The notes below the pieces were generated by a model that made no database searches, had not been told where the DNA came from, and saw only the letters and a list, made by a program, of their open reading frames with translations. DNA of 22,048 nt from a virus. The stretch covers positions 1 to 22,048 of the IMG/VR virus record IMGVR_UViG_3300028548_006611. One strand, written 5' to 3'. Below are positions 3,588-22,011 of the stretch, piece after piece (position 1 is the first letter of the stretch; each line of letters starts with the position of its first letter). A program made the position numbers and the translations under genes.

Positions 3588-5500
3588 TTCATTTCCTCTA
3601 GCCATTTATATATTGTTTTAACAGGCACATGCAGCACTCGTGATAGATACAATTCATCGTGCCCTCTGGCTGGTGAGTACATTGATTGCACACGTTGCTT
3701 AGGTGAGCGTGAGGTTATGACATGCCTCTTCTCATCTGTGTTTGATGTACCGAATGCGATGTACTGGCAACGCTGGTGGTTGTCTGTCCACTCCCTGACC
3801 TTTCCGAACCTAACTTCCATGACGACATCTATGCTCGCGCCTCGTGAAGTCATCTGAGATTCCAGAGTTGAATAGGGATTGGATTCAATGTCGCCAGCGA
3901 ACAAGCCGCTGTTCATTTCAGCAGTTGCTTTATCGCTAAACACTTGGGTCACTTTTATTTGAGTCTCAAGAACTGTGAGCTGGTTGGTACTACCTGCCTC
4001 CTTACCTGCGCCACTTTCAGAAGGCTTGTTAGCATGATGCACCATTACAATAGCCATGCCCTTGTTGCGGATAGCAAGAGCAATCTTGTTGATGTGCGCC
4101 CACTCGTCTGCTTTGTTTTCCGACAGCCCTGCGAATGCAGTCCGTATAGTGTCGATCACGACAACATCAGGCTTCACACTAATCAGCCACTTTGTAAACT
4201 CATGCACCCCTTCGGGAGAGCGCATATCAATGTTCTCTTTCTTGCCAACAAATGGAGTCCAGAGATTGTAGTTGCCGTGGCTTGAGCCAAATGAATCTTT
4301 GAATGTTGCAAGCATGGAACCCAAGGTGGCCTTGCCGTTCTCGAAGTCGAGATACAGAACCTTTGACGGCTTACTAACCTCAAAGCACCCCATGCTTTTG
4401 CCACACGCGAGGTGATACATCATATGTGTGAGGAACATAGACTTGCCGTGACCAGAGTAGCCATAGACTTGCGTGATAGATTCTTTCCTTAGCCAAGGGT
4501 CAACTAAATACTCGTAGCCCTGAGCCTCCTTTATTAAACTCTCTGCGTCTTCTTCCGTCAGAGGTATATAGTTCTCAGCTTCATCCTCATCAAGCGGTGC
4601 GGCTAAAGATATTGGCTCAATAGACGAGGATAAATGTGCGATGTAATTACCATTACGATCAAAACGCTCAGGGTGATTGGCTCGTTCTAGCTCTCGAACA
4701 GATTGAAGGTTTGTTCTCACACGAGATTCATCAAGCGGCTCGACAAAATACTTATCCATCATGTCTCGTATTGCAACTTCAAGTTCATCACCTATCCCGT
4801 ATTTTAAGCAAGCCTCGGATGCGTAATTGAAAACGAGGTCATGCCGTCCAGTGCCACCAGTAGGGATTAAGTTGTTCGGGTATGAGTCAGCCTTTTGTTG
4901 GATGCGAGACAGAGCAGGGGTATTCGTGCCAGCGTATGTAAGATCAAGCAGACCGAAATCAAAATCATTTTCAACGGCTGGTTCTGTGGTGCTGAAATCT
5001 GGATCAATCCATAGCGGCATATCATCATCAAAGTCCAAGCCAGTTGGAATATGAAACTCATAATTCTTAGAAGGGGGGATAATGACGTAGCCACCATCAC
5101 CACGAAAATCGAGTCCGTCACAGTGATACCAATTTTTACCTGCATTGCTACCTACTCTTGGAGGTCTACGCCCCCCATCCAAGGGGTCACGGAAGTAGTA
5201 GTGAACACCACGCTTGGTCTCCACTCGGATGGGTGAGGTGAGGTCATGCTCTAATGCAAAGCGTTTAGATTCTTCATTGTCGCAATCGACTACGACTATT
5301 CCTGAGATAGCACCTGTGACTAATGCGAGGTGTGCATCAGGTCTAAGTCGTAGCCATTTCTCCACCTCCTCAGTCGTAGGCTGACGGGTCTGGAATTCTT
5401 TCCAAGAGTCAATGCAAGGACGCTTGGTTGTAGGGGAGCAAGGAATAATAGACCAGCCTCGATCTAAATATTCCATTGCCAGCGTTAAGGTATCTTCCAT
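3584..5500 (-). CDS. Bifunctional primase-polymerase fused to RepA/DnaB-like helicase ATPase
   Basis: The 638-aa protein joins two replication domains. Residues 1-200 form a Prim-Pol domain: RGWSIIPCSPTTKRP (14-28), the metal-binding DCD (D72, D74), HYYF (100-103) and DFRGDGGYVIIPPS (131-144). It should prime DNA synthesis. Residues about 330-540 form a RecA-fold ATPase of the RepA/AAA_25 type: Walker A GYSGHGKS (347-354), LDFENG (384-389), Walker B VVVIDT (446-451) and VHHANK (487-492). A C-terminal HTH (about 615-635) may bind origin DNA. The start at 5498-5500 is preferred over an earlier ATG at 5545: it follows the XRE stop by one base, with GAGGGAAG upstream, and puts the Prim-Pol motif at its usual distance. 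It is the probable replicative primase/helicase. No separate DNA polymerase gene is in the window. Confidence 0.9.
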   Translation of the reverse strand: MEDTLTLAMEYLDRGWSIIPCSPTTKRPCIDSWKEFQTRQPTTEEVEKWLRLRPDAHLALVTGAISGIVVVDCDNEESKRFALEHDLTSPIRVETKRGVHYYFRDPLDGGRRPPRVGSNAGKNWYHCDGLDFRGDGGYVIIPPSKNYEFHIPTGLDFDDDMPLWIDPDFSTTEPAVENDFDFGLLDLTYAGTNTPALSRIQQKADSYPNNLIPTGGTGRHDLVFNYASEACLKYGIGDELEVAIRDMMDKYFVEPLDESRVRTNLQSVRELERANHPERFDRNGNYIAHLSSSIEPISLAAPLDEDEAENYIPLTEEDAESLIKEAQGYEYLVDPWLRKESITQVYGYSGHGKSMFLTHMMYHLACGKSMGCFEVSKPSKVLYLDFENGKATLGSMLATFKDSFGSSHGNYNLWTPFVGKKENIDMRSPEGVHEFTKWLISVKPDVVVIDTIRTAFAGLSENKADEWAHINKIALAIRNKGMAIVMVHHANKPSESGAGKEAGSTNQLTVLETQIKVTQVFSDKATAEMNSGLFAGDIESNPYSTLESQMTSRGASIDVVMEVRFGKVREWTDNHQRCQYIAFGTSNTDEKRHVITSRSPKQRVQSMYSPARGHDELYLSRVLHVPVKTIYKWLEEMK

Positions 5501-5501
5501 C

Positions 5502-5732
5502 TTAGCTTCCCTCAAAATCAGGGGCATACTCAATATAGTAAGCAATGTCTAAGTTGTATTTTTTAATAAGCTTCTCTAACACTGTAGCGTTTATCTTTCT
5601 CTCAGACCTGAAGCGATAGAAAGAAGATCGGCTTATCCCTGTCTTGTCACATAGAGATTGAATACTTGGCTCTCTGGCTAGGCAGTCATCTAAAATCCTT
5701 GCGTAGTTAATCGACTGTGTTGCTTCTGTCAT
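5502..5732 (-). CDS. XRE/Cro-type HTH regulator
   Basis: This 76-aa protein is a single Cro/CI-like helix-turn-helix domain. The recognition unit spans about residues 23-42 (SIQSLCDKTGISRSSFYRFR), followed by ATVLEKLIKKYNLDIAYYI, which fits helices 4 and 5. It has no dimerisation or protease domain, as in Cro-like repressors. It is transcribed leftward, first in its operon, beside a divergent promoter region full of inverted repeats, so it probably controls both directions. AAGG lies nine bases before the ATG. No integrase accompanies it, so an early/late timing switch is likelier than lysogeny, but the window cannot exclude a temperate phage. Confidence 0.8.
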   Translation of the reverse strand: MTEATQSINYARILDDCLAREPSIQSLCDKTGISRSSFYRFRSERKINATVLEKLIKKYNLDIAYYIEYAPDFEGS

Positions 5733-5846: not shown

Positions 5847-6281
5847 ATGGAATGGGAAGAATTAGTTGGCAGTAAAATAGTAGCACCACCTACTGCTGTT
5901 GAGTTGGATGCCGAACTTCAACTTTCGGTTGAAGAGTATTTAAGTATTGAGGTGCAAAGCAAAAATCTCAGTGCAAGAGCTAAGTTGTTGCGTGAGAAAA
6001 TTACAGACGCATTACCTTTAAGAGATGGTGATGAACAGATTGTTAAGACTGCGCTAGGTGATGTGCATATAGAAGGTAAGTCCTCCTTCACTTGCTCTTC
6101 GGTAAAGATGCGAGACATTGTGCTTCGTGAGTATAACGATGCTGATGTGCCAGACTTTGTGAAAACAAAATACTCTGTCACTCGAATTGCTTTCGAGCTT
6201 TTAGATACCGAGACTCAGCACAAGTTTTATGAAGCGGTCACATACAAGCAGGGCCAGCACAAAATAACTGGGAGCTATTAA
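5847..6281 (+). CDS. Hypothetical protein, first gene of the recombination operon, 144 aa
   Basis: The ATG has AAGGA seven bases upstream. The 144-aa product is acidic at the start, with a helical, possibly coiled-coil stretch at about residues 27-55 (LSVEEYLSIEVQSKNLSARA onward), then a mixed strand/helix part ending TYKQGQHKITGSY. No membrane span, cysteine cluster or nucleotide-binding motif is visible. Its stop overlaps the start of the Sak4-like gene by one base (TAATG), so the two are translationally coupled and probably made in similar amounts. Position suggests a recombination accessory or an inhibitor of host nucleases. That is inference only, and I do not recognise the family. Confidence 0.85.
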   Translation: MEWEELVGSKIVAPPTAVELDAELQLSVEEYLSIEVQSKNLSARAKLLREKITDALPLRDGDEQIVKTALGDVHIEGKSSFTCSSVKMRDIVLREYNDADVPDFVKTKYSVTRIAFELLDTETQHKFYEAVTYKQGQHKITGSY

Positions 6282-7063
6282 TGTTTTCACCTAAACGAAC
6301 AAACAATCTTTCGGCTGTACGCCACAACCTTTTGGTTGGTGCGTTTCACGGCTTTGGCAAAACTACTCAGGCAAAATATATGCAAGAGTATTTTGGCAAA
6401 ACGCTAGTGATCGACATGGAGAGCGGTGTTCAATCGCTCACTGATACTGAGTTAGATGTTGTCACAGTCACAAGTTGGGACGGCCCAAACGATCCAGCCA
6501 ATGCCAACTTTTCTTTTAAGGGTTTAATGGAAGAGATAAATAAGCCTGAGTTTGAAAAACTTGGATACAAGTGTCTGTTCATTGATTCGCTTACTGAACT
6601 GAGTGATCTGCTTATGCTTCACATGGAGAAGGAGCATCAAGGAAACAAGAACGGCTTTCAAATTTGGGGAGACTACGCGCGAGTTATGGTCGCTGCAATG
6701 AAGTGGCTCCGAAACTTAAACTATCACGTCACTGTAACTTGTCTTCTCGCTGAAGAGACGGATGATAATGGTGGCGTAACGTATCAACCGCTAGTAAAAG
6801 GAAGCAAAGTAGGTAAACACATTCCAGCTATCTTCGACCATGTATGGTGCGGCAACCGCACAACAAGTACAGGGCCAGATGGCGAGTTAGTTGTTCGTAG
6901 ATTTTTAATTACGGATAACGTCAGGGGATATTTCGGTAAGAGTCGTGATCCATTGCGTTCATTATCTCCGATTGAAGAAACGGGCAACGTCACTGATCTA
7001 TTCAAAAAGATGAATGATGCGGCAGTAGCTCACAATATTAATACTAAAAAACAAGGTAAGTAA
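6281..7063 (+). CDS. Sak4-like RecA-fold ATPase (phage recombination, AAA_24 type)
   Basis: The 260-aa protein has a RecA-type ATPase core. Walker A is GAFHGFGKTT (20-29, K27), followed by VIDMESGVQSL (43-53), typical of Sak4/AAA_24 proteins, and Walker B CLFIDSLTEL (98-107, D102). A conserved-looking WGDY (about 129-132) and VRRFLITDN (about 206-214) follow. Sak4 proteins are small relatives of RecA/RadB that promote single-strand annealing or strand exchange, usually with a partner SSB. Here an SSB-like gene follows two bases later and a Cas4-like exonuclease follows that, which supports the call. It could instead be described only as a P-loop AAA_24 protein. Confidence 0.8.
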   Translation: MFSPKRTNNLSAVRHNLLVGAFHGFGKTTQAKYMQEYFGKTLVIDMESGVQSLTDTELDVVTVTSWDGPNDPANANFSFKGLMEEINKPEFEKLGYKCLFIDSLTELSDLLMLHMEKEHQGNKNGFQIWGDYARVMVAAMKWLRNLNYHVTVTCLLAEETDDNGGVTYQPLVKGSKVGKHIPAIFDHVWCGNRTTSTGPDGELVVRRFLITDNVRGYFGKSRDPLRSLSPIEETGNVTDLFKKMNDAAVAHNINTKKQGK

Positions 7064-7065
7064 TT

Positions 7066-7545
7066 ATGTCATTTAATTTTTCAAGTTTAGACTTAACTGA
7101 AGTCAATCAAGAATCTGGTCGCCGCACACTTGCTGCTGGTGATCACTCTTGCCGTATTAGCGATGTAGAAATCAAGGACACTCGCTCTGGCGGTAAAATG
7201 TTAATCATCGAAATGACAGGTGATGGCGGTCAGAAAGTAAATGATCGTATCAACATCGTGAACAACTCCAAAGAGGCTGTTGAGATAGGCCGCGCTCGAT
7301 TAAAGCACTTGCTAGAAATGGCAGGACATCCTAATCCTAATAAGCCAAGTGATGTGAATTCCATTAAGGGTTTATCAGTTGGCGTTCATGTGGTCGATGG
7401 GGCAGATTGGGCAGATCAAGAGGGCATGATCCGCAAGGGTGGCGGTGAGCCTCGTCGTTCTGCTCCGTATTTTAAAGCGACTGCTAGTGCAATGGCTGCG
7501 ACAGCGAAAGATGATGATGGGTTCGGTGATGGTATTCCATTTTAA
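7066..7545 (+). CDS. SSB-like single-stranded DNA-binding protein (DUF669-type) with SSB tail
   Basis: The 159-aa protein begins MSFNFSSLDLTEV and has a strand-rich middle (HSCRISDVEIKDTRSGGKML, about 27-46) resembling DUF669-type phage proteins, thought to be OB-fold-like and found with annealases. The clearest evidence is the end: a glycine- and lysine-containing linker and then DDDGFGDGIPF, matching the acidic IPF tip by which bacterial SSB recruits partner enzymes. It should coat single-stranded DNA made during replication or by the Cas4-like nuclease and load the Sak4-like ATPase. That role follows from family and neighbours. An intrinsic terminator lies 20 bases after its stop, so it may be made more than the next gene. 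Confidence 0.8.
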   Translation: MSFNFSSLDLTEVNQESGRRTLAAGDHSCRISDVEIKDTRSGGKMLIIEMTGDGGQKVNDRINIVNNSKEAVEIGRARLKHLLEMAGHPNPNKPSDVNSIKGLSVGVHVVDGADWADQEGMIRKGGGEPRRSAPYFKATASAMAATAKDDDGFGDGIPF

Positions 7546-7564
7546 ATATTAGTTAGCTAATAAT

Positions 7565-7587
7565 AAGGGGCGATAAGCCCCTTTTTT
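7565..7587 (+). terminator. Intrinsic terminator after the SSB-like gene
   Basis: The stem AAGGGGC pairs with GCCCCTT (7 bp) around the loop GATAA, followed by a T-run of six. It lies between the SSB-like and Cas4-like genes and only three bases before the ribosome site of the latter. It would lower, but perhaps not abolish, transcription of the exonuclease. Confidence 0.85.
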
Positions 7588-7601
7588 GTAGGAGTTTTTT
7601 G

Positions 7602-8432
7602 ATGAATAGAGTAGTCGATGCAATTGATAATGCTTACGCACAAGAGCCAGAAGAGAAGCCTCGTCAGTATATTGGAGCGAGTTCACTGGGCAATGAATGT
7701 CTAGCGTATCAGAGTTTTAACATGCGAGGATTTCCCAACACGCCAGCCAGACCTAACTTGAAACGAATCTTCCAGTTTGGCCACGCGCTTGAAGATGTTG
7801 TTGTCGCTGACTTGAAGAAGGCAGGGTTTGAAGTGTTAGAGATTGACCCTGATACGGGCAAGCAATTCAAATTTTCCCATTGTGGAGGGCATGTCTCTGG
7901 CCACACTGACGGCAAAATCAAGGTAGATGGCGAATGGTTGATGCTGGAAATAAAAAGTATGAACAAGACAAGCTTCGCAAAGTTCGTTAATCACGGCATT
8001 GCCAAGAGCCACCCAAGTTACAACGTACAGATGCACACTTATATGGCAGTGTTCGATATGGACAAGGCTCTGATGGTGGCGATATGCAAAGACAATTCAC
8101 AGTATCATGCTGAAGTTGTTGAGTTCACGGATGATGTTTGGAATCCAGTTGAAGAAAGGGTTAACAAGGTACTGTCTGGCTCGTGCGAGAGGATCAGTAC
8201 AAGGCCAGAAGATTTTAGATGTAAGATGTGCTTTAAGAAAGATGTCTGCTGGGAAACACCAGATGCTCCTACCATTCCCAAGACTTCGGCTACCTGTAGA
8301 TTCGGTGAGCCTGATCAAGAGAAGGGAGGATTCTTTTGTGATCGCTGCTCGACTCGCGGTGAGTGTTGCAGCGAAAAAGAGTGGAGGAGATTCAACTCCA
8401 TCCACATCGACATCGGTGGTTTAATTGATTAG
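7602..8432 (+). CDS. Cas4-like PD-(D/E)XK exonuclease with cysteine clusters
   Basis: The ATG at 7602 has AGGAG seven bases upstream; the TTG at 7599 is not needed. The 276-aa protein has the Cas4/RecB nuclease order: SSLGNEC (28-33), GHALED (60-65), HTDGKI with D103, MLEIKS with E116 and K118, and YNVQMHTY (140-147) with Q143. C33 plus C207-x2-C210-x5-C216 matches the four-cysteine iron-sulphur pattern of Cas4 and AddB nucleases. A further cluster (C232, C246, C249, C255, C256) follows and is unusual, suggesting an added metal-binding module. It would resect DNA ends to give single strands for the Sak4-like/SSB-like pair. Its stop overlaps that of the giant gene on the other strand. Confidence 0.85.
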   Translation: MNRVVDAIDNAYAQEPEEKPRQYIGASSLGNECLAYQSFNMRGFPNTPARPNLKRIFQFGHALEDVVVADLKKAGFEVLEIDPDTGKQFKFSHCGGHVSGHTDGKIKVDGEWLMLEIKSMNKTSFAKFVNHGIAKSHPSYNVQMHTYMAVFDMDKALMVAICKDNSQYHAEVVEFTDDVWNPVEERVNKVLSGSCERISTRPEDFRCKMCFKKDVCWETPDAPTIPKTSATCRFGEPDQEKGGFFCDRCSTRGECCSEKEWRRFNSIHIDIGGLID

Positions 8433-11400
8433 CGACTTGCTTCGCCAGCCAAATAATCCACTGCGTCTTCTTTGATTTGACGATTCTGACCGATTAGCGG
8501 TATGCGGCCAATAACTTCTCGCCACGCTTGTCGCTCTTTCGAGTTTGAATCATCATTTTTATCTACAGCTCCAGCTCCTATGTTAACGAGAGTTCCAAAG
8601 ACTGATCCGTAAGTTGGGCCAAGGAACGTAGATGCGATACGATTATTTCCGTATGCACCATTATCAATCTGCTCGGCTGACTGATGGAACAAATCCGCGA
8701 GAAGACCGAAGCCACCTGCGTACATGAATCCTTCAACGTATCGTCCAGCGAGAGCGTCCATCTCTGCACTTTCAAATACTGGATCATCCTCGTCAGCACC
8801 AAAGGTCTCTAAGAACTTATTAGCAGATCGTTCTCTACGCTTATACTCGCCACCTTCCTCGCCACCTTTCGCAGTTGCAGCCTCACGAACACTTAACACC
8901 TGCTCTCCGAAGATTGGGGCTAAGGTTAATAACATTGCTGCTGGGGCTAAGTTAACTGGCTCACCTTTGGTTAGCATTGGCTTGCCCACTTCATCCCATA
9001 TTGCTCGACGAGCAAGACGGCCCATCATAAGAGGGAATGATTTGAACTGGAACAAGACTGATCCTAATGGAGACTGCCAGATTAGAGGAATGTCGTTTCC
9101 GTTAGGAGCGAACACTGCCTCGTTAGTCATGCGGTGAATTGCTTCGCGTACTTGATCATTCTCTAGCAACTTCATGTTGTCGAGAGATTCAGAACCACGC
9201 TCTGCAAAGTGACCTAAGCCTACGCGAGCAAGGAAGCGTTTAGCCCTACGGAAGTCTGCACTTTGCATTGCAAGGTTAGTTCCATCTCCCTTCATATCTC
9301 GTATAGCAATGCGCTGCTCTGCCTTGATTGCTTCGTATGCGGTTGAAGCTGCGTAATCACGCATGTACTCCGTCCACTGGTTCAGTCCGATGCCTGAGAA
9401 GAAAGCGTTTGACAGCTTATCTCCTTCACCACCTGACATGTGAACCAGCTTATTGTGTGCAATGGAAGCCATGCCAGCACCCACATTGCGAATTGCTTCA
9501 CGATAGTCGGGGTCTAAGTTAACCTTTTTCAATCCTTTCATGGCTGAAGGTAGACTGCCAGAACGAATTACAGGGAGAACCAAGTCCGTCATGGATGTGA
9601 TGACAGTGTACGAGAGTAGCGAGACACTGTTAAACATACGAGCACCCTTTGATGCTGATCTCGCAGTCTCGTTATACGTTCCTCCACGAGAAGGAGAGCG
9701 TCCTCTGAGAGTATCGAACATACCAAAGGCATGTTTGTAATCTGTCGTTGTGCTGGAGGTTTTACCACCCGTTTCCGAAAGGGCAGTCAGTATTGCATCT
9801 ATTCGACGCTCAAGAGCTGGTTGCCTTTTCATAGCCTGAGAAAGAAGGAACTCTTTCGCGGCTGGCTGGCCGTCAGACTCCATGATAGACATGGCTTGAT
9901 TCAACAACTGGGTTCCATGAGCATCACTTCGAGCGATAGGCATCATTAAGCTGCGCTCAAACTCGGTCACTGTCTCGCCGTCAATAGACTCTACTGCTCG
10001 CCGATAAACCTTGCCAGACTTTAAGAGTTTAGCTGCGCCTTTAATGCCGTTCTCATGCGCTTCCATATAGTCATAGAATGCGTGAGACTCAATACCAAAG
10101 TCCTCTGTTATAAGAACTCTGCGCGATGATTCATTGAAATACTTAGTTGCTAAACCTCCTAAGTCGTTAACCAAGTAGCCTTCAAGATCGTCAAGGTGAT
10201 CTGGAAATTCATCAAGACGAATCACACGACTAAAATCAAAATGATCTGACTGTGATTCTGTCTGATTGTTTGGGCGAGAGGGGATGTAAACACCATCATC
10301 GTTAGTTAAGCGAGTCATCATCTTTGTTGCTCGCTCTGTTGCTAGATCATCGGCTAAATCCTCGCCTCTGTTCCTCGCCTCTGATTTAAAATACGATGCC
10401 ATTGACTTAGTAAATGCTGCGCGTGTTTCAGCATTTCGGTTGATCACATTAATGTCCCACACCTGCGGTATGTAGTTTTTAATGTTGCCAATAAATAAGC
10501 CTTGGCTACGCATTTCTTCTAGCTCTGACTTGAACTGCTTGCGAAGCATATCGTAAAGCTTTCGCTCATCACCACGAAGAAGCTGTTCTTGTTTGCTTCC
10601 AGCAGGTCGCCGCATTGCCTTCAATACTCTGGCTTCGCTGACGCTAGGCTTGTAGCCCCACTGATTAACACGATCCAAATAGCGACGACCTGCACCTTTT
10701 TCTGTTCCACTGATGTCTTGGATCAACTTTAAGATAGGCATCACTTTCTTGCCCACTCGTGATCCATGCTTCTCGTAGTGGCCCACGCCCTCTTCTGGCT
10801 TAATAAGATTGCCGAGCCATCTCATGCCGCTAGTCCTGATCTGGACAGAGTTTTCAGCAAGCAGAGCGTCGAACATTCCTTTTACATTGCCAGCTAACTT
10901 CTTGCCTTGCTCGCCATTACCAATAAATCCTCTGGTCATTTGAGAGATAACATCTGCGCTTGATCCGTTGCTGCCATTCTTCTCAATCATAGAGCCAATG
11001 TGCTTGGCGACAATGGATGGGTCAAGAGACACTGGGGCTTGTTCTTCAGCAGCATTAATTACCATTTCTCCTACAATCGTACTAAGAGTTTGGGTTTCTT
11101 CTAGCCTTGGAACGCTTTCAGGATTAACGAAGTCAGGGTCATTAATGCGCTTAACCTTTTCAGGTACGAGCAATGCCATAAATTCTTCGCCACTATCGCT
11201 AGTAAGCTTAACTCCTTTAAAGTTTAAATCTTTTAAGGCTCTGGGGATTGAGGTGCTAGAGCCTGCAACAGATTGTAAAACCTCAAAGGCATTAGCTGCT
11301 GAGTCAGCGTCATCTATCTTTTGCGAGAGAGTGCGATAAGCAGATTCTTTTATTGAAGGAGTAATGAGGGTAAGAATATCTTTAAACAGTCCTCGATTAT

Positions 11401-14400
11401 TCTCGTCAAGTGGCGTGGTTGACGAGAAGCTAATAACTTCTTCTCGCGTAACACTAGATACAACTACTGAGCTGTGTTCTACAGGGGCAACGCCAAGTCT
11501 TGTTTGAAACATATCTACAATCTCACCGATTGCGTCATTGCTGTTTTCAATCTGATCAATGCTTTGCTCATAGGCCATGCTATTTCTTTCAGCTTTGTCA
11601 GATAATGAGGGATCATCAACTGCATTTTTGAAGCGAATAGCTTGGTCGATATACGCATGGCGTTGGGAGATAAAGGCTTCTAACTTGCGAAGCTCTCCAA
11701 GAGCATAATCTGACATTGATTTTGGGTCTTGGTCATTACGAACAGCCACACGACTTGCTGCATCAGCAATATCTTTTTTGTTATAAGAATCTGCTTTGAA
11801 GTCTTGGTTGGTAAATACCTTATTGGCAGTTCCATGAGACTCAGCAACGTAGATTGCCCCGTCAAGCTTCTGGCTTCCCGTAAAGTTATTAGGTAATAGC
11901 TTGCCAGATGAGCCACCAGTATTCGAGTAATAGAAAGGCTTGATACGGCCTCTAGCACCTGAGATTGATCCAGACACAAAGCCACTGAGCCTTCTAACAC
12001 CTTCCTCTGGCATGTCATTGATTGCTTGTTGTGCAAAGTCATTGAGGTATTGAGAAGGAACATGATGATTGGAAATATTACCTAAGATGTTTTCCCTCTT
12101 GATTAGATTGCCAGAGAAGGTGAGCCTCCTAAACATTTGCTTCACGTCATTACGGCCAATTAAGCCGTTCAATCCGTAGGCTACATACTCAGAGAGGAGG
12201 TCTGCATATTGACCTAGCTTTCCTTTCATTTCTAGCATGTCGGCTTCTAAACCACCACCACCTTCTTGGCTGTAGTCCATCTTAGATGAAGTAATGTCCG
12301 CTTTAGAGACACGATTAGCAAGGTAGTTGGCCCACGATTCAACAAACCATTCTTCAGCACGATCCTCCATAGAGGAGTTCGTGTATCGTCCTGCAAAATC
12401 AACAGCAACAGGGTCTTCTGCTTTAACGGCTAACTTAAACGCATCCCTGATAACCAAAAGATTTTCTTCTGGAAGGGCGCGTTTGAATATATGACCAATC
12501 TCGTGCATCAAAGCCTTTGGGTCAGAATCCTCACGATTAAGCCCAACGACAATCCTACGAAAATCTGAGCGAAGCCCACCAAATTTAGCGGTAGATAAGT
12601 CTTTTACCACACCATCGACTTCTGAATAGTTCTCGCCAGTTATCTTGCCTAGCGTGTGAGTATCAAGAAGAGGAATGTCATCAACAATGCCACGAGTAGA
12701 AGCGTTGATTAGACCATACATACGCTGGAACATAAGACGCATGTTTGCTTGAACTTCAGGATCACGATGAGTCATCATCTTCGCAGAGTCTCGTATAGAC
12801 AAGGGTGCATCAATCCAGATTCCCTCACCATCCACCTTTCCAATGCTCTCCATTTCAATTGCAGAAGATACTTGTGATGAATTGATAGAGTCTTTGCCAG
12901 ATAGAGAATGGATTGATTCTGTTTCGGAGCGGCGATGAGCCTCGTAATACAAGCCTTCTAAAGTTTCCTTATCTCCAGAATCGAGTGCTTCTTGGTGCTT
13001 GTTAGCAAGCTCCTTTTTGTTTAGCGAGATAAAATTAACATTACTAGCATTGCTAGATGCTGGTGAGGTGTTGCTATTTTTGTTACGACTGCTATAAGCA
13101 TTTTTTACAAGCCTTCCAAGCGGAGTCACAGGCTTTCTGCCTGTGAAATGCTCCTGCTTCAAGGCTTTGTCAGAAGGTAATGCTATTGCATAATTCTCTT
13201 TTGAAAGCCTGTAATACTTATCCGTAAGCAGCTCGGCAACCTGATCAATCATGTCCCTGTTGTCTTGGATCAGTGCAGTAATCTCTTTGGCAGCAGAACT
13301 CACGTCCGTAGGCTCTGCGTGAATCTTATAAAATCCTAACTCTGTCTCAAAGTCGTCAACCTCTAGCGTGTTGCCTTCCATAAAGATGTAGACTTCGTTT
13401 ATTTTTTCTACTAAATCCATGCCTTGTGATGAATCTACACCAGCACTTTCAGCAGCAGTATCTATAAACTCAATCTGCTTATCGGTCAGCTCCCTACCTG
13501 CATCATAATCTTCTATGATTTTCTGGAACTCATCATAATCAAACTTCTCGTCTGGCTGGGCTGCTTGATTCGATTCTCCAGCGAGATACTTAGAGTAGAT
13601 AGCGTTAATGTCTTTGGCTAAAACTCTTAACTTCTTCGAGTATCCTGCCTTAGATACAACAGTAAATGCTCCCGTCTTATTTGTATCAGCAGGGCCAATA
13701 ATGGGATCGCTATTCTGTCCTAACGCACTAAGAACGCGAGACTCGCCACGAGTTATAGAGAGAGAATTTAGAAAGCGAGATAAGTTACGAGCATCAAAGA
13801 TTACATCGAAGGGCTTCTCGCCTGCTGGGGTTCCATTCTCGCTGATATGTGGCGAGAAAGTCTTCCATACTTTAGTAAGCTCGGAGGTTCTTATTCTAAG
13901 GTAGCTTTGAATTGTGCTTTCTGCATCCAGAACACGCTGCGGTGGAGCATCGGGATCAAATACCTCAACGACCTTTCTCGCTTGGCGAGTAGCGGCAGTA
14001 TCTTCTGGGTACAGGCGAGCAAAGATAGCGTCCAACTTAGGATTGCCAGACTCTTTGCCTTGCATCTTCTTGAATACGCCCTCTATAAATTTAGCCATCC
14101 TGCGCCACATGGTATTTACTTCTACATCTCCGTGGCGAGCGTTCAAGGCCCACTTCTCGAAGGCGTTAGCGAAAAATTCCGCTTGCGTAACTCCTGTTGA
14201 AGTTGACATCTTATTATCAGTTAAGAACTTTGCACCTAAATCTTCTTCCGCATATCCAGTAGCCTTGGCTAGTTTATCAGCATCAAGTTTTCCATCAGTG
14301 TAAAGGGAAGTTTTTAGTTCGTTCCAAAACTCCATTCTCATTTTTGGAGTCATGGCATTGTTATACGACCAGTGGCCTACTTCATGCACTAAAGAAGTGA

Positions 14401-17400
14401 ATGAAGGAAAATGATTAACTTGTGCTTCTGGCTTTAGCAATATGTCACTTGTCCCACTAGCTCCGTACCTATGCGCCCCACCACGATTACCGCGTTCCAT
14501 CAACATTGTTGGCGCACCATCCTTGGGATTGAACTGGTCTACTGCGCCAGTGACCCGAAGGAAAAGTTTTTCAACTGCATCGTAATTTTCTTTACCTATC
14601 GCATCCAATAATACTTCAGCTTGTATTTTAGCGTCAGGCTCAAATCCAGCCATGATGTTACGAGCTTCCCTTATTGTCTCTCGTCTTGTCTGTGTCTCGA
14701 ATCCAACGCCATTAGGAAAATATTTATCCTGAATTCTTAAAAGTTCCATCGCCTCCTGTACTGAATCATCAAAACCTGTCCCATTTGGAAGGAACTTTAC
14801 TTGGGTATCCAGTTTAGTTAACGCCATATTAACGTCTGCCATATCGTGTACTAACTTCTTTTTGTTTGGCTTCTTACCCTGAGATTTAAACAATGAATCC
14901 CTTAAAAACTTAATATCTTCAGGCTCCATAACGTCTTCTGGCATGATTTTTTGTAAGTCCTTCATGTTGGGAGCTACATCAGTAAATAATCGCTTGATCG
15001 GTTGCTCAGACACCTCTTGAAATAAATCAATAACCAAGTTCTTGTTCAAGGCACTAACCCTTGGCGAACCTTCAGGAACCATACCAACTAGCCATTGCTC
15101 ATCAGAAGCTTTTCCTAGTAATTGGTTAACTCCTCCACCATTCTCCAACTGCTTGTCGGTGATAACTCGAATCTCAGTGCCAGCCCCATTAAGGGCAGCG
15201 AGGCGATAGCCTTTAGGTAAGACAACCTCGTCTAAATTTTGAGTAAACTTTGGAGCTGACTTTGGAGCTGTCGCAGATGTAGTGGTTTGGGGAGAGTCAT
15301 CAATGGGATTGATAGTGTATCTTGATCCACCTTTTTTGCCGTTCAGTTCTTGCTGAAGAAGGAATCGAGAAACGATAAAGTTGCGAAGCTTAAAGCGTTT
15401 TGGCTCATCTGTAGTCTTTCCTTGCTTACCCCTTGGACGAGAGACACCTTTCGAGTCGTAGTATTCTTTAACGAGTCGATCAAATCCCTGACCTAAAAGT
15501 TTTTTAGGGTCGCGGAAATCATCTACGTTAATATGCTGGCCTATGTCGTAAGTGTCTCTCTGGTCTGTCCTTAGTAAGCCTTCATTTTGAAGAAGCTCAA
15601 TAGGACTTTGATAAACTTTTCCGTTGGTATGAGACATATAAACAATCTGGCCAGCAGGAATAGAGTTGTATATTCTGCCATCCTTACCTGTACGAGAATT
15701 GCTTGGGTATCCTTCGGTTAGAACAAATTTAGCGCGAATGCTATTAGCGGCTATAAAAGCTACGGGTTTCTTTAACTTTAGTGCCAGAGCGTTTGCATTG
15801 TCGCGGCTCATTACATCTTCTATCTGTAATACCTTAGCCCTGTTCTCTAGTAATTCTCCCGATAAGGCTTTTTTAATGTAAGCTTCTGATGCTTTCTTAC
15901 TTGGCCCAATGTTAGTGAACATCTCCCAGTGATCTAGTGATGCACCACGAATCTGATATTGCTCACGAAGCATTTGTCGTGCATCTTTCTTCCAGCCTGC
16001 AACTCTGGCTTTTAGAAGGTCATCAAAGAATGACACTTTGTTGGCCTGACTATCCCAGTAGGTTGAGAATTTTTTGTCAGTCTTTAATTTTGCTGCAACG
16101 CGACTCTTGCGCTCGGCAACATAGTTAGCGATAAATTCTTTTTCAAAGTTAGAATCTATGGTGCTAGCGTCAGTCTGAGAGCCAAGCCTATTGACCTCAA
16201 AGTCCTCTGTCTCTAAACCTTCTTTTATTTTTTTGTATTCTTGGAATAGTTTTTTAGAGTCAGCACTGCCCTTACCGAAGACATCACCAATGATCTGCTT
16301 CATTAACTTTTGGTCAGAAAGCACAAACTCTGCGCCCGATTCAACGATAGAGGTGAACAGTGTCGCTAAAGTTTTTGACGTTTCTGGATCACCCTGAGAT
16401 TCAACCATGTCTACCAGAGTTTTAGGAAGCTCAAACGTCTTGTCAGACTCGATTTCTATTGCCTCTTTGATCTCTTGAAGCACCTGATCTTCATTCGCTT
16501 TTTCGGCTTTTACTTCTGGCGTGACCTCTGGAGCTTCCATCTCCTCTTTGATTAGTCTTCCTACTTCTGGATTAGCAGCAGACTTTGGCACTTCCTTCGC
16601 AACTTTATCCGCTTTAGGGACTGATACTTCGGTCTCTATCTCTTGTAATCTTTCTTCTATTCTGGCGAGTTTTTGTGGAAGAGGTAGCTTTGAGCTTTCT
16701 TTAAAGTTTGGGTCTATACGCTTTAATATTTCTTTAGCGATTTTGTTTTTTTCTTTTGCATCAAGATTTTTTGTATTAAGGTTCTCATCTTGCATTACTG
16801 CTTTAGCGACCTTCTCGCCTTTAGCACCAAACGCTTTTTTAGAACTAGCGACTTCCTCTCCTTTCTTTTTACCTTGTGTTGCAATTTCTATTGTTCTTTC
16901 TAGCTCGTCAAAGGACTCTCTTATCGCCTTGATAATTGGAGCAGTGTCTTCGCCTTCGATCTCTAAAACAGATTTTTTGATTGCGTCATCAGGGGCTTGA
17001 TCAACCACGACTTGTTCTGCTGGCTTCTCTGGAGTGGCTAAAACTTCTTCGTTAACTTCAGGGTCAGTTCTAGCAATCTTTACTTCTTCGTTTACAATCT
17101 TTACTTCTTCGGCTTCTTGTTCGGGAGACTTAACTTGAGTGTCAGCTTGTACTGGTTTTGTGTCAGGTGTAGCTTCTACCTTTGGAACAATTGATGGGAC
17201 ATCAAATACTGGCTCTTGAGCTTCTGCTTCGTTTTTCTTAGCGTCAGCTTTGGCTTCTGCCGCAGCTTGTCGCTGGGCTTTCTTAAAGGCTAACAATCCA
17301 TCGGCGTAACTGTCGCCTTCTTTTAAATTTTGATATATGCCAAAGCCAATCTTATAGGCTCTTTTCGCCTGATTAGACTCTGCCGCAAGGCGAGCAATCC

Positions 17401-18571
17401 TAGCCCGAATTTGTACTGAATCTTTAGGATCAACCCCTACAATCTGAGCTTCCAGTTCTGCAATCTCTGCGTTTCGTTTATTCAGGTCTGTCGCGCTAGA
17501 CTCAAGTTCTTGAAGAAAGTCGCTATCTTCAATAAGGTCTGCTTTCTCGGAAGCTGTTGGTGGGTTTTCTGTATCAGTTAATCTACGTTCAGCGTCTTTA
17601 CGCTGCAAAGCAATCTGCTCAAGGTCTATGTCAATATTTTCTCTGTCTGCAAAAGTAGGCACAGCCTCTTCTACTAATTCTTCTGTTTCTAACTTAGGTT
17701 CTGATCCAGCCAATTCTGCATCAAGTTCAGCTTTTGATTCATACTTGAGAAGCTGTGTGAGACCATCGCCCCCAAAGTTTTTTGTAGACTCATCAATTTC
17801 TGATTGCGAGAATCCGCGAGAGAGTAGGGTGCTATTATCCTTTCGCAGCTTTGCTCTAGCCAGAGGTGTTGTTGCAGCACCTAGTAGGAATGCTATGCCG
17901 TAGTTAGCAGCAGCTCCAGCAATGGCAGACGTACCTAACTTAGCATACGAGAACTCGTCGCTGTTGCCTAAGTTAATATCTCGACTCTGGCCAAAACCAC
18001 TGATCGCCATTTCCGATCCAGCACCAGCGAGAGCTTGCTTCTTTGCTCCAGCTTTACCAGCTTGAAAAGCCGCACTACCTACAGACTTTCCAGCCGCCAA
18101 CGCACCATAAGCTGTGGCCTTCGCTGCACCACCGCCTATTACGTTGGTTGGGTTTAGGATGTTAGCCCCTCCCAAAGTTTTTGTAATTTCTGCGCCAGAT
18201 AGTTCATCTGATATAGAGCCACCACCAGCACCAGTAGTTAATACGTTGGGCATGACTTCGTAGGCGGCGGTTAATCTCGCCATACGATCACGAGACTCAC
18301 CTTGCAAGGTCGATGTTTGAAAGTAACCTGCATCACCAAATGCTGCGCCAAGTTCATTCATGGCTGCATAGGATTGCTCGTTATACCATTCAGCCAAAGC
18401 TTCCTCGAATGTGAAATCCTTCATGTCGTTGGCTTTGGCGTTCTCGACAATATCACGTCTAAAGAACGGGTCTTTTAAAAGGTCTTGTGGGCTAGTGCTT
18501 GAATAGTCTGAGCTTGTTGATGCGTTAGAAGGGTCTACTAAGGCTTGGATGTCTTTCCAATTTGAGGGCAT
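8429..18571 (-). CDS. Giant polyvalent virion (ejection) protein, 3380 aa, with two HExGH metallopeptidase motifs
   Basis: The start has GGAG seven bases upstream. Residues about 1-110 are soluble. About 108-235 are rich in Gly and Ala and could insert in a membrane (TSAIAGAAANYGIAFLLGAA). About 240-820 are highly charged with coiled coils and a Lys/Glu/Pro-rich linker. About 820-1340 are mixed. A first zinc-metallopeptidase motif LVHEVGHW lies near 1395 with a possible third ligand E near 1465. A second, LMHEIGHIF, lies near 2023 with E residues near 2072-2078. From about 2590 the protein becomes a helical conserved tail including SPLGSVLFQFKSFP (near 3170), as in the LPD38 domain of large polyvalent phage proteins. 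It lacks the SLT lysozyme of T7 gp16. As third of three virion-type genes it is inferred to be packaged and injected. No frameshift is visible. Confidence 0.85.
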   Translation of the reverse strand: MPSNWKDIQALVDPSNASTSSDYSSTSPQDLLKDPFFRRDIVENAKANDMKDFTFEEALAEWYNEQSYAAMNELGAAFGDAGYFQTSTLQGESRDRMARLTAAYEVMPNVLTTGAGGGSISDELSGAEITKTLGGANILNPTNVIGGGAAKATAYGALAAGKSVGSAAFQAGKAGAKKQALAGAGSEMAISGFGQSRDINLGNSDEFSYAKLGTSAIAGAAANYGIAFLLGAATTPLARAKLRKDNSTLLSRGFSQSEIDESTKNFGGDGLTQLLKYESKAELDAELAGSEPKLETEELVEEAVPTFADRENIDIDLEQIALQRKDAERRLTDTENPPTASEKADLIEDSDFLQELESSATDLNKRNAEIAELEAQIVGVDPKDSVQIRARIARLAAESNQAKRAYKIGFGIYQNLKEGDSYADGLLAFKKAQRQAAAEAKADAKKNEAEAQEPVFDVPSIVPKVEATPDTKPVQADTQVKSPEQEAEEVKIVNEEVKIARTDPEVNEEVLATPEKPAEQVVVDQAPDDAIKKSVLEIEGEDTAPIIKAIRESFDELERTIEIATQGKKKGEEVASSKKAFGAKGEKVAKAVMQDENLNTKNLDAKEKNKIAKEILKRIDPNFKESSKLPLPQKLARIEERLQEIETEVSVPKADKVAKEVPKSAANPEVGRLIKEEMEAPEVTPEVKAEKANEDQVLQEIKEAIEIESDKTFELPKTLVDMVESQGDPETSKTLATLFTSIVESGAEFVLSDQKLMKQIIGDVFGKGSADSKKLFQEYKKIKEGLETEDFEVNRLGSQTDASTIDSNFEKEFIANYVAERKSRVAAKLKTDKKFSTYWDSQANKVSFFDDLLKARVAGWKKDARQMLREQYQIRGASLDHWEMFTNIGPSKKASEAYIKKALSGELLENRAKVLQIEDVMSRDNANALALKLKKPVAFIAANSIRAKFVLTEGYPSNSRTGKDGRIYNSIPAGQIVYMSHTNGKVYQSPIELLQNEGLLRTDQRDTYDIGQHINVDDFRDPKKLLGQGFDRLVKEYYDSKGVSRPRGKQGKTTDEPKRFKLRNFIVSRFLLQQELNGKKGGSRYTINPIDDSPQTTTSATAPKSAPKFTQNLDEVVLPKGYRLAALNGAGTEIRVITDKQLENGGGVNQLLGKASDEQWLVGMVPEGSPRVSALNKNLVIDLFQEVSEQPIKRLFTDVAPNMKDLQKIMPEDVMEPEDIKFLRDSLFKSQGKKPNKKKLVHDMADVNMALTKLDTQVKFLPNGTGFDDSVQEAMELLRIQDKYFPNGVGFETQTRRETIREARNIMAGFEPDAKIQAEVLLDAIGKENYDAVEKLFLRVTGAVDQFNPKDGAPTMLMERGNRGGAHRYGASGTSDILLKPEAQVNHFPSFTSLVHEVGHWSYNNAMTPKMRMEFWNELKTSLYTDGKLDADKLAKATGYAEEDLGAKFLTDNKMSTSTGVTQAEFFANAFEKWALNARHGDVEVNTMWRRMAKFIEGVFKKMQGKESGNPKLDAIFARLYPEDTAATRQARKVVEVFDPDAPPQRVLDAESTIQSYLRIRTSELTKVWKTFSPHISENGTPAGEKPFDVIFDARNLSRFLNSLSITRGESRVLSALGQNSDPIIGPADTNKTGAFTVVSKAGYSKKLRVLAKDINAIYSKYLAGESNQAAQPDEKFDYDEFQKIIEDYDAGRELTDKQIEFIDTAAESAGVDSSQGMDLVEKINEVYIFMEGNTLEVDDFETELGFYKIHAEPTDVSSAAKEITALIQDNRDMIDQVAELLTDKYYRLSKENYAIALPSDKALKQEHFTGRKPVTPLGRLVKNAYSSRNKNSNTSPASSNASNVNFISLNKKELANKHQEALDSGDKETLEGLYYEAHRRSETESIHSLSGKDSINSSQVSSAIEMESIGKVDGEGIWIDAPLSIRDSAKMMTHRDPEVQANMRLMFQRMYGLINASTRGIVDDIPLLDTHTLGKITGENYSEVDGVVKDLSTAKFGGLRSDFRRIVVGLNREDSDPKALMHEIGHIFKRALPEENLLVIRDAFKLAVKAEDPVAVDFAGRYTNSSMEDRAEEWFVESWANYLANRVSKADITSSKMDYSQEGGGGLEADMLEMKGKLGQYADLLSEYVAYGLNGLIGRNDVKQMFRRLTFSGNLIKRENILGNISNHHVPSQYLNDFAQQAINDMPEEGVRRLSGFVSGSISGARGRIKPFYYSNTGGSSGKLLPNNFTGSQKLDGAIYVAESHGTANKVFTNQDFKADSYNKKDIADAASRVAVRNDQDPKSMSDYALGELRKLEAFISQRHAYIDQAIRFKNAVDDPSLSDKAERNSMAYEQSIDQIENSNDAIGEIVDMFQTRLGVAPVEHSSVVVSSVTREEVISFSSTTPLDENNRGLFKDILTLITPSIKESAYRTLSQKIDDADSAANAFEVLQSVAGSSTSIPRALKDLNFKGVKLTSDSGEEFMALLVPEKVKRINDPDFVNPESVPRLEETQTLSTIVGEMVINAAEEQAPVSLDPSIVAKHIGSMIEKNGSNGSSADVISQMTRGFIGNGEQGKKLAGNVKGMFDALLAENSVQIRTSGMRWLGNLIKPEEGVGHYEKHGSRVGKKVMPILKLIQDISGTEKGAGRRYLDRVNQWGYKPSVSEARVLKAMRRPAGSKQEQLLRGDERKLYDMLRKQFKSELEEMRSQGLFIGNIKNYIPQVWDINVINRNAETRAAFTKSMASYFKSEARNRGEDLADDLATERATKMMTRLTNDDGVYIPSRPNNQTESQSDHFDFSRVIRLDEFPDHLDDLEGYLVNDLGGLATKYFNESSRRVLITEDFGIESHAFYDYMEAHENGIKGAAKLLKSGKVYRRAVESIDGETVTEFERSLMMPIARSDAHGTQLLNQAMSIMESDGQPAAKEFLLSQAMKRQPALERRIDAILTALSETGGKTSSTTTDYKHAFGMFDTLRGRSPSRGGTYNETARSASKGARMFNSVSLLSYTVITSMTDLVLPVIRSGSLPSAMKGLKKVNLDPDYREAIRNVGAGMASIAHNKLVHMSGGEGDKLSNAFFSGIGLNQWTEYMRDYAASTAYEAIKAEQRIAIRDMKGDGTNLAMQSADFRRAKRFLARVGLGHFAERGSESLDNMKLLENDQVREAIHRMTNEAVFAPNGNDIPLIWQSPLGSVLFQFKSFPLMMGRLARRAIWDEVGKPMLTKGEPVNLAPAAMLLTLAPIFGEQVLSVREAATAKGGEEGGEYKRRERSANKFLETFGADEDDPVFESAEMDALAGRYVEGFMYAGGFGLLADLFHQSAEQIDNGAYGNNRIASTFLGPTYGSVFGTLVNIGAGAVDKNDDSNSKERQAWREVIGRIPLIGQNRQIKEDAVDYLAGEASR
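17074..17111. repeat. 17-bp direct repeat inside the giant gene
   Basis: CAATCTTTACTTCTTCG occurs at 17074-17090 and again at 17095-17111, with a period of 21 bases, or seven codons. It encodes a repeated EEVKI motif in the charged linker. It looks like a simple in-frame duplication. Confidence 0.9.
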
Positions 18572-18682: not shown

Positions 18683-20713
18683 TTATGGTTGTTGGTATAG
18701 AGGAGAGTTTGCCCAACTTTGAATCGAACCCTGACCCGAACTGATGGGAGCCTTTTGCTGCATGTGGACAAGAACAGCGTCTCGAACTGCTGGAATTTTT
18801 GTAGCTTCTCTCAGTTGATTCTCTTTAGCCAGTAGCTTATTTAAAAGGTTCTCTGCTTGTTGCTGAATATTTTTTAGCGTTTGCAAGTAACTATCAATGT
18901 CACCTTGGTGTTCTTTAATCTTATAGGAGTTATAAAATAATCCAGTTTTCTTATGGTCTGTATTCAGCTCATTGTAATCATCATTGGCGGCTTGAATATG
19001 ACTCCTAAGAGCAGCTATTGCCTGTGGTATTGCGCTCATTGCGTCTAAGTAATTGTCAGTAATTACATTGTTTGCATCAAGCAAGGCTCCAGAGGTCGTA
19101 TCTATTCTGATAGCATCATCTGCCAAACTCTTAACCATAACGTCAGTGGTGCTAGCTTGAGACAATGCCTTACCCCATAAGGACATAAAGTTACTAACAG
19201 GCATTGGCGATCCAGCGGTTAACTGAGCTTCCCGTTCGATTGCAGACTTATTTGAACTATCGAGTGTCATGTATGCGCTGGCAGCTTGGACTATCTGATC
19301 TACGCCAAGACCGTTATCAATGCCGTTTTGAATCACAAGCTTAATATTTTGAATTCCTCGTGCGTTTTTCTTACCAATGTAATACGGCTCAAGAGCAGCA
19401 GCCACTTGATTGATAATGCCTGATTGGGTGCTATTGGTTTTATTTGCAAGTAGAGAGGCAGCAATTTTATCAACTTCTTGATCACCCTCGCTTTGGGCAG
19501 TAGCAGAATTTGTGGAGGCTGTCGCGGAAGCAGCAACTTGTGCTTGCTGGTGGACTTGCTGGAACGAAAGCTCTTGTCTGCTATGAGCCATATCCACCCA
19601 ATTTTTAATTCTTTGTAGAGTAACGTCATCCTTGGTTGGGTCATTGCCTGCCAATTCGACAATTGCCGCAATCCTTTCATCAGGCGATAAGGTAGTGTCG
19701 GACATGACAGCTTCGGTGTCTTTATTATTCATCGTAAGAACAGCATCGACTTTATCCGCTACTTTCTGGTCGGCAGTATTCTGGACAGTTTTGTTATGGC
19801 TATTTACCAGTTGTCGAAGATTAGCCGTTACAGTTTCACTTGCACCTTTGGTTTGTGCGTTAAATGTTGCCTCGTCAATTGTGGTGATATTGGAAAGAAG
19901 GGCTGTAATAAGTGACGTGGCTGTCTTGTCATTTACTGTATTGTTATGCCCGTTCATTTGTAAAATGATAGTGTCTTGGAAGTCTTTTGGTATATTGGCA
20001 TCTTCCATCTGAGACCTAAGTGTGGCCTCATCGACTACACCACCAGCAGCGACAGCGTTGGTATATATTGATGTACCAGTAGCTCGGAAGCGTTCATTAC
20101 CTTTACGTTCAAGTATCTCATTAAATTTTGAAGCAATATCAGGCGCAGCGTTAGGGTTAAATTTACTGTAGTCGGTAATGCCTTGATCAACTAAACTGGT
20201 GATTGTCGATTGAACTTCAGAAGTGTTCATGTATTCAGACAACCAAGATTTTCTGTTGTTACCCACATCAATAGAGGAAACGTAATCATCGTATGCAGAA
20301 ACCAACTCAGGGTTATTGCCAAGCGATTTTCTGCCTGCCTCAACCGCTTGAATAGAATCATCATTTGTTAAGAAGCTATTAGTAAGTGCGCTCTGAAATA
20401 TATCGTCCCTATTTTTCATTACCTCAAATCGAGAAACTTCAGCGTTCCTTCTCGTATCTCTGGCTGCGGTATTGTTGGCTGATAATTGTGCGCCCATCTC
20501 CATCTTGGTTGGTGCGCCTGTCATAATGTTGTAATCGTTGTCAGCGATATTAGCGAACTGGTTTGTCGCCATCTCGGAAGTAACATCAATTCCAGCATCT
20601 CGCTGCGAGGTTAACCAATCGTTGTAATCCTTTCTCGCACCTGCACGATTTTTGCGGTGTTCCTGCTGACGATTTTTAAACGAGTCGTAGGCTCCTGAAG
20701 TGAACATTCCCAT
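18683..20713 (-). CDS. Internal virion protein, 676 aa (position of T7 gp15)
   Basis: The 676-aa protein begins MGMFTSGAYDSFKNRQQEHR and is largely helical, rich in Gln, Asn, Ala and Ser, with long amphipathic stretches (GIQNIKLVIQNGIDNG, LQTLKNIQQQAENLLNKLLA). No enzymatic motif, membrane span or cysteine cluster is visible. Its start overlaps the preceding stop by one base (TAATG), so it is translationally coupled to the 432-aa gene. A middle-sized helical protein second in a three-gene series ending with a giant protein matches the order of T7 gp14-gp15-gp16, which build the internal core and the DNA-ejection conduit. The assignment rests on size, composition and order, not on sequence I recognise. 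It ends just before a strong terminator. Confidence 0.75.
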   Translation of the reverse strand: MGMFTSGAYDSFKNRQQEHRKNRAGARKDYNDWLTSQRDAGIDVTSEMATNQFANIADNDYNIMTGAPTKMEMGAQLSANNTAARDTRRNAEVSRFEVMKNRDDIFQSALTNSFLTNDDSIQAVEAGRKSLGNNPELVSAYDDYVSSIDVGNNRKSWLSEYMNTSEVQSTITSLVDQGITDYSKFNPNAAPDIASKFNEILERKGNERFRATGTSIYTNAVAAGGVVDEATLRSQMEDANIPKDFQDTIILQMNGHNNTVNDKTATSLITALLSNITTIDEATFNAQTKGASETVTANLRQLVNSHNKTVQNTADQKVADKVDAVLTMNNKDTEAVMSDTTLSPDERIAAIVELAGNDPTKDDVTLQRIKNWVDMAHSRQELSFQQVHQQAQVAASATASTNSATAQSEGDQEVDKIAASLLANKTNSTQSGIINQVAAALEPYYIGKKNARGIQNIKLVIQNGIDNGLGVDQIVQAASAYMTLDSSNKSAIEREAQLTAGSPMPVSNFMSLWGKALSQASTTDVMVKSLADDAIRIDTTSGALLDANNVITDNYLDAMSAIPQAIAALRSHIQAANDDYNELNTDHKKTGLFYNSYKIKEHQGDIDSYLQTLKNIQQQAENLLNKLLAKENQLREATKIPAVRDAVLVHMQQKAPISSGQGSIQSWANSPLYQQP

Positions 20714-22011
20714 TATGTTTTACTCTTATTTTTCATTGAATTTATAAACAAGTCAAAAGCATCGGAACCAGCAGCACCTTGAGCCGTGGCATTGGTAGAG
20801 GCTAAACCTGCGTATGTTTGAGTCATAGACTTTGCGCCATCAGCCGCTTGGTTCAATAAGCTGCTTGCACCACTGTTGTATGTGCTTCCTGTTGGAGCTG
20901 CTGAAGTGACTCCTGTTGGACTGCCTGCTCCAGCATTAATCATCTGGCCATTTTTAAGTTGGTTCAGAGAATCAGCGAAGTCATAGTCTGCGCGTCTAAC
21001 TGTTTCAGCGTTAGTCATAAGGTTGTTGCCAGTAGCAAAGGCTTTTGTTTGAGCGTCCATAATTGAGGAGTTGCCTGCTTCGCTTAAAATTCCTGATCTG
21101 TTTGTATTGAACAAATTATCCTTCGAGGTGTTGCGAGCAATGGCTTGGTCGTAAGAAGCATTCTTAGTCTTCATTACTTCATCGTAATACTTCTTCGTAA
21201 GGTCACGAGATCGGTCTTCTTCAATAGTAGATCGGCTCATTCCATTGTTGTAGTTTTCGGCATAACCTCTCGTATTCACTCGATCAATAAGATTGTTTAA
21301 CTCACCCATGTTTTCTTCGTAGAGCATTCCGTAGTCACGCATAATATCTTCATTAGATATTTGCTCACGATCACCAATCCTGTCGATAGCACCAAGAACA
21401 CGAGTCTCGTAGTCTTCTAGCGAGGTACGTTGGTCTGTGTATATTTGAGACTGATCTTGATAAACATCATCTAGCTCATCGCCAGCGTTTAGGAGGACTT
21501 CTTGTACATGGGCAGTTTGTGCTTCGAGAACATCGAGGTTGTTAGTTCTTAGTGCTTCATCATATCTCTCTTTATCAAGAGCAAAAGGCTGTAGCTTTTT
21601 GTACCAAGAGAACTTTGTATCAGCGATTGTTTTGTTTAGCGTTTGGGCTTCTTCCCAGTAGCCCATCTTCTTGGCTTCAATAGCCAGAGAAGCAGTGAAG
21701 GCGTCTTGCTGGAGTTTGAATCCAGCTAAAGCTAGGTCTTTGTTTGTGATGGCAAGCATCTTTTCCAGAGCTAATGATTCAGCCGCAGCATCACCAGCAT
21801 TTTTTGCATTACCATACGCAGTGATTGCTGTATATGCAGACCCAAGAAAGCTGCCAGCTTTTCCAATACCATCCCAATTTATAGATTGTGTTCCAGATGA
21901 GGCATCGTAACCTTCAGTGGTGGTAATAAACATACCTTTGGCTTCTTCAAGGAATGCGTCACCAGCACTCTGGAACGACCAAGTTGATGGGTCAAATAAA
22001 TTAAAGCTCAT
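20713..22011 (-). CDS. Internal virion protein, 432 aa (position of T7 gp14)
   Basis: An AGGAGGGG ribosome site lies six bases before the ATG, one of the strongest in the window and fitting a highly expressed structural gene. The 432-aa protein begins MSFNLFDPSTWSF. It has a Gly/Ala-rich, mildly hydrophobic part (about 48-75, GIGKAGSFLGSAYTAITAYG), then long coiled-coil-like helices (about 80-330), and a low-complexity Gly/Ser/Thr/Ala tail. This resembles small internal-core proteins of T7-like phages that enter the outer membrane. The order and coupling with the 676-aa and giant genes support an ejection-protein role. This is inference, as I cannot match the family directly. Confidence 0.75.
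   Translation of the reverse strand: MSFNLFDPSTWSFQSAGDAFLEEAKGMFITTTEGYDASSGTQSINWDGIGKAGSFLGSAYTAITAYGNAKNAGDAAAESLALEKMLAITNKDLALAGFKLQQDAFTASLAIEAKKMGYWEEAQTLNKTIADTKFSWYKKLQPFALDKERYDEALRTNNLDVLEAQTAHVQEVLLNAGDELDDVYQDQSQIYTDQRTSLEDYETRVLGAIDRIGDREQISNEDIMRDYGMLYEENMGELNNLIDRVNTRGYAENYNNGMSRSTIEEDRSRDLTKKYYDEVMKTKNASYDQAIARNTSKDNLFNTNRSGILSEAGNSSIMDAQTKAFATGNNLMTNAETVRRADYDFADSLNQLKNGQMINAGAGSPTGVTSAAPTGSTYNSGASSLLNQAADGAKSMTQTYAGLASTNATAQGAAGSDAFDLFINSMKNKSKT

Follow-up and report, generated by a model that had tools for sequence, protein, structure and literature searches.

The window analyzed here is a 22,048-nucleotide stretch of viral DNA (IMG/VR record IMGVR_UViG_3300028548_006611). 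A single unbroken open reading frame (ORF) of 3380 codons, with an ATG start, runs on its minus strand from 18571 to 8429. It spans 10,143 b, or 46% of the window, as an earlier note made from the letters of the DNA had stated. The parts of this giant gene and its two upstream neighbors are listed below, with domain assignments predicted from sequence and structural models.

8429..18571, minus: giant gene, 3380 aa, putative gp16-type polyvalent ejection protein; homologous single ORFs of ~3000-4000 aa are found in dozens of IMG/VR contigs
17792..18571, minus: residues 1-260, conserved N-terminal domain with a Gly/Ala-rich hydrophobic segment (~135-235); counterpart of gp36 in Roseobacter phage CRP-810
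14540..17791, minus: residues 261-1344, long, charged and poorly conserved (conservation profile, sequence)
13967..14524, minus: residues 1350-1535, zincin-like domain 1, with HEVGH at 1396-1400 and Glu1465 in QAEFFAN
12077..12784, minus: residues 1930-2165, zincin-like domain 2, with His1935, HEIGH at 2023-2027, and Glu2074 and Glu2078 in AEEWFVES
11072..12004, minus: residues 2190-2500, ADP-ribosyltransferase (ART)-like region (ART-PolyVal in relatives)
8432..10894, minus: residues 2560-3380, predicted all-helical gp16-type C-terminal domain, the best conserved portion
18683..20713, minus: upstream gene, 676 aa, in the same operon as the giant gene; a gene of ~590-900 aa lies at the same place in most relatives with enough flank
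20713..22011, minus: next upstream gene, 432 aa; a gene of ~400-600 aa often lies at the same place in relatives

The two genes preceding the giant gene are similar in size to gp14/gp15-type genes. For the 676-aa product, no relation to T7 gp15 was detected. At the other end, the stop codons of the giant gene and of a convergent Cas4-like exonuclease gene overlap by four bases (TTAG, window 8429-8432), leaving no space for a terminator between the two operons. The exonuclease belongs to a plus-strand recombination cassette at 5847-8432, which also encodes a Sak4-like annealing ATPase and an SSB-like protein. Further genes on the minus strand encode a primase-polymerase/AAA protein (3584-5545), PhoH (2376-3104), and a cell wall hydrolase (210-605; Hydrolase_2, E 9e-25). 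In CRP-810, lysis genes adjoin the giant gene; none is found at that place in the window.

Among 50,697 phage records searched, the sole match to the giant protein is CRP-810 (OR671924.1). This phage and 251 related uncultured genomes constitute a new family (PMC11288001). CRP-810 and the window share a neighboring replication cassette of bifunctional primase, AAA ATPase, small genes, and PD-(D/E)XK nuclease, which in both converges on the late genes, the giant protein being first among them. Identity between the two proteins is 28% at the N-terminus, 23% in the site-1 region, 27% in the site-2 region, and 37% at the C-terminus. Whereas the window protein is one ORF, its CRP-810 counterpart is divided over three overlapping adjacent ORFs, gp36, gp35, and gp34; it is gp35 that holds the two HExxH motifs. 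Only ORF36 in this region was named, as internal virion protein D (PMC11288001), and the other two ORFs are annotated as hypothetical.

Scans of IMG/VR recover many loci, in which single ORFs of ~3000-4000 aa are the rule; one scan with a C-terminal profile gives 449 candidate stretches encoding a relative. Five further loci sit in bacterial genome records, including Poseidonocella, which is reported as a prophage host (PMC11288001). By computation these proteins form one family that shares the domain order listed above. One locus (L014) encodes the protein as two ORFs. The gp35/gp34 split of CRP-810 coincides with a 31-nt tandem duplication (24030-24160 in locus L001, OR671924.1). A close relative (L018) carries a single copy of this segment and an unbroken frame, so the split may be an accident or an artefact.

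Searched by itself, the window protein has no Pfam hit at E<=1 and a single, marginal PHROG hit. The Gly/Ala-rich segment near the N-terminus described in the earlier note is present, with its best hydrophobic stretch at about residues 212-235, where Gly positions are conserved. The N-terminus gives no convincing match in a PDB sequence-profile search, and a comparison with T7 gp16 yields no match to this end of the protein.

The two HExGH motifs that the earlier note placed near residues 1395 and 2023 lie at window positions 14386-14372 and 12505-12491 on the minus strand, and are conserved in distant relatives. From the composition of the protein, 0.0025 such motifs would be expected by chance. 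The earlier note had also pointed to acidic residues after each motif. Across sequences that are only ~20% identical overall, the two HExxH motifs are kept, and so is a Glu downstream of each (E1465 and E2074). In an alignment of 35 non-redundant members, the site-1 consensus is HExxHW followed by Glu in PQEFFANQF, and the site-2 consensus is HExxH followed by AEEWFxES. The downstream Glu is invariant at both sites where HExxH is intact, among members chosen for an intact HExxH, and in members retaining the sites the H, E, H, and downstream Glu are invariant or nearly so. The two regions are homologous to each other (hhalign probability 94.4, E 9.3e-8), with HExxH aligned on HExxH and E1465 on E2074. 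His1935, which is invariant, precedes HEIGH by 88 residues and is part of a THRDPEVQ motif (window 12769-12767, minus).

Profile searches relate these domains to known zinc peptidases at low significance. Site-1 members match M91 (best, E 0.0034), ATLF (six members), M78, M90, M48, MPTase-PolyVal, and SprT-like families weakly but repeatedly, and site 2 matches only ATLF and M9, with E ~0.08-0.09. The matches of site 1 recur, but no zincin profile match at either site exceeds the curated Pfam cut-off, which is a database criterion and not a biochemical one. AlphaFold2 modeling of the two-zincin core predicts confident helices at both HExxH motifs and at both downstream Glu residues (pLDDT ~83 at site 1 and 86-91 at site 2). 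The model is modest overall (pLDDT 68.7, pTM 0.37); at this pTM, strands precede site 1 and none precede site 2. A Foldseek search of this low-pTM model against the PDB returns no match at E<=0.001. In PDB sequence-profile searches, the whole core gives nothing convincing, zincin 2 alone gives no match, and zincin 1 has Pro-Pro endopeptidase/Zmp1 as its best match (E 0.58). Both sites are likely members of the zincins, of gluzincin type with a putative H-H-E site; this membership is likely and not proven, given the weak Pfam matches, the modest model, and the lack of a PDB fold match.

A third module, absent from the earlier note, is the ADP-ribosyltransferase-like region between site 2 and the C-terminus. 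The pattern YHGTP...GPGIYLT...LGYDGI...VxFDPxxVKH is common to relatives here, and Pfam ART-PolyVal matches this region in 34 of 43 relatives (best E 1e-11). Tankyrase catalytic domains come up as a weak match in a profile search of the PDB (E 0.018). The window protein itself has no Pfam ART-PolyVal match. Its catalytic His is replaced by Tyr (FYYSN versus FYHGT) and its Tyr is kept, whereas CRP-810 has both residues intact; the His is also replaced in the nearest relatives of the window (LYYAT, MYFST). The region changes fast in the window lineage, with an identity ratio to the C-terminus of 0.43 (three pairs) against 0.66. The ART is intact in most relatives and degenerate in the window lineage, and the window's own copy is probably dead.

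The final ~820 residues are the most conserved part of the protein in the conservation profile. The model of this domain is all-helical save for one hairpin (pLDDT 76, pTM 0.78). Against the PDB, neither Foldseek (no match at E<=0.001) nor a sequence-profile search (nothing convincing) identifies a relative, but Foldseek against BFVD returns 53 matches at E<=0.001. These begin with three close polyvalent proteins, followed by many unnamed proteins and structural or internal virion proteins of T7-like and other phages, including Vibrio VP2, Pseudomonas LKA1, Bordetella BB8, Burkholderia JG068, and Pantoea LIMElight (TMq ~0.37-0.52). The C-terminus also aligns over 65 columns with a profile of nine T7 gp16 relatives (hhalign probability 82, E 1e-5). 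These fold and profile matches agree, for the C-terminus, with the ejection-type placement in the earlier note. With a relative's C-terminus as query, tblastn recovers distant relatives in two Pseudomonas phages, KPP25 and phiR18, which are 27% identical and annotated as 'structural protein'. An apparent extra HExxH in this domain (HERMVHM) falls inside the gp16-type fold and was left uncounted.

Each zincin site has been lost naturally in parts of the family. Of the 65 rows of a tree, eight, which form one clade, have a dead site 1; site 2 is dead in 23 rows, requiring ~8 changes, at least six of which are forced by well-supported branches. A smaller bootstrapped tree is concordant, with one change at site 1 and at least three at site 2. 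Since either one can disappear, neither site is essential by itself. No row of the 65-row tree lacks both sites. This absence is not significant, because the site-1-dead clade makes up only 5% of the tree length and no double loss is expected by chance with p 0.64-0.72; it was accordingly rejected as proof of redundancy. The identity ratio of the site-2 domain to the C-terminus is 1.00-1.08 where the site is intact and 0.62 where its residues are lost, a slow rate giving way to a much faster one that fits conservation of this domain for catalysis. The contrast at site 1 is small (0.78 intact versus 0.70 dead). One locus with a dead site 2 (L147) has an extra, site-1-like HEVGHWA at ORF residue 2312, between site 2 and the ART.

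Polyvalent proteins are very large phage proteins that carry between one and five zincin-like peptidases, and in ~8% a chain holds two or more copies; the zincins are often fused to ART and other enzymes, and injection has been proposed (PMC5512222, Iyer 2017). They are defined by two or more unrelated enzymatic domains within a single large protein of a phage or plasmid, which the present family has in its zincins and ART-PolyVal. The window protein itself differs, as it lies below the Pfam cut-off for both MPTase-PolyVal and ART-PolyVal and its ART is degenerate. It resembles T7 gp16 (internal virion protein D) in the C-terminal fold and a conserved ...Y[IV]P.V[WY]D segment, but is 2.5 times larger, has no transglycosylase that could be found, and lies next to an upstream gene not recognizable as gp15. 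Another comparison is the N4 virion RNA polymerase (vRNAP, gp50), an ejected protein of ~3500 aa with an N-terminal membrane-type domain, one HExxH domain, and a large helical C-terminus (PMC12633501). A weak alignment (E 0.0028, probability 11) links its HExxH segment to site 1. The N4 protein has an RNA polymerase domain, for which the window protein has no Pfam match, and it was rejected as a homologue of the window termini since hhalign finds both the N- and C-termini unrelated. Literature searches for zincin or ART domains in ejection proteins turned up nothing relevant beyond the N4 vRNAP preprint and the papers by Iyer. The family is a new, so far unannotated branch of phage polyvalent proteins with a gp16-type scaffold, of a kind already described by Iyer 2017.

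The anatomy of sequence and models suggests that the giant protein is probably a gp16-type ejection protein with peptidase cargo. The N-terminal Gly/Ala-rich segment and the ~820-residue helical C-terminus would serve as a delivery scaffold, and the transglycosylase of gp16 would be replaced by enzyme cargo, consisting of two homologous gluzincin-like domains and, in most relatives, the ART. The earlier note had proposed that peptidases take the place of the lysozyme domain. With Pfam, neither the window protein nor any of 14 relatives shows a transglycosylase or lysozyme domain, and the two H-H-E sites are conserved, in keeping with this proposal; it is incomplete in that a further enzyme domain, ART-PolyVal, is present in relatives and some lineages have lost one or the other peptidase site. 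We infer packaging, injection, and proteolysis, along with its target, by analogy with gp16, N4 vRNAP, and the polyvalent-protein proposal. The protein would be made as the last structural gene product and packaged in the head, its chain of loosely linked domains would be threaded out together with the DNA and refold in the host, and at least one zincin site would cut proteins there. This host-directed action of the zincins is a tentative reading, with a likelihood slightly short of even.

The zincins may instead process the giant chain itself, before packaging, in the head, or after ejection, and so free the ART or the gp16-type scaffold. Such self-processing has been proposed for polyvalent proteins generally, with P1 DdrB given as an instance of processing (PMC5512222), and would suit the division of the protein near domain borders into three adjacent ORFs in CRP-810 and into two in L014. 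One of the CRP-810 splits is the duplication missing from its close relative, which lessens its weight, and N4 vRNAP, with its one zincin, is packaged uncut (PMC5512222). Moreover, the window lineage retains both zincins beside a degenerate ART, which speaks for a role beyond release of the ART. Self-processing is a credible but minority reading, and action in trans on host or other proteins is favored over release of the ART cargo alone. A narrower version of host attack holds that the zincins, as copies of a single essential protease working after ejection, can replace one another, that each lineage must keep at least one of them, and that their target is a host protein and not their own chain. 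This version is rather doubtful; if true, the phage family would hold natural single knock-outs of each copy.

The H-H-E sites could also be structural or relic domains without peptidase activity, a view consistent with the loss of site 1 in one clade and of site 2 in at least six lineages, and with the lack of a strong match to any characterized peptidase. The near-invariance of H, E, H, and the downstream Glu at retained sites makes this improbable, as does the faster change of the site-2 domain that accompanies loss of its residues. Finally, the peptidases might open the envelope at DNA entry by cutting peptidoglycan cross-links or envelope proteins, in place of the gp16 transglycosylase that Pfam fails to detect in this protein family. 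The matches of the domains are to general zincin families, no similarity to peptidoglycan peptidase families was found, and a cell wall hydrolase is encoded separately at 210-605, though possibly for lysis. Envelope opening is decidedly improbable.

These results supply functional hypotheses for the largest gene in a family of marine phages with a global distribution. CRP-810, an isolate of the giant-protein family, exists in culture, and most of the gene is annotated there as hypothetical. Given the natural losses of zincin 1, zincin 2, and the ART, comparison of relatives can test self-processing against host attack by injected peptidases.
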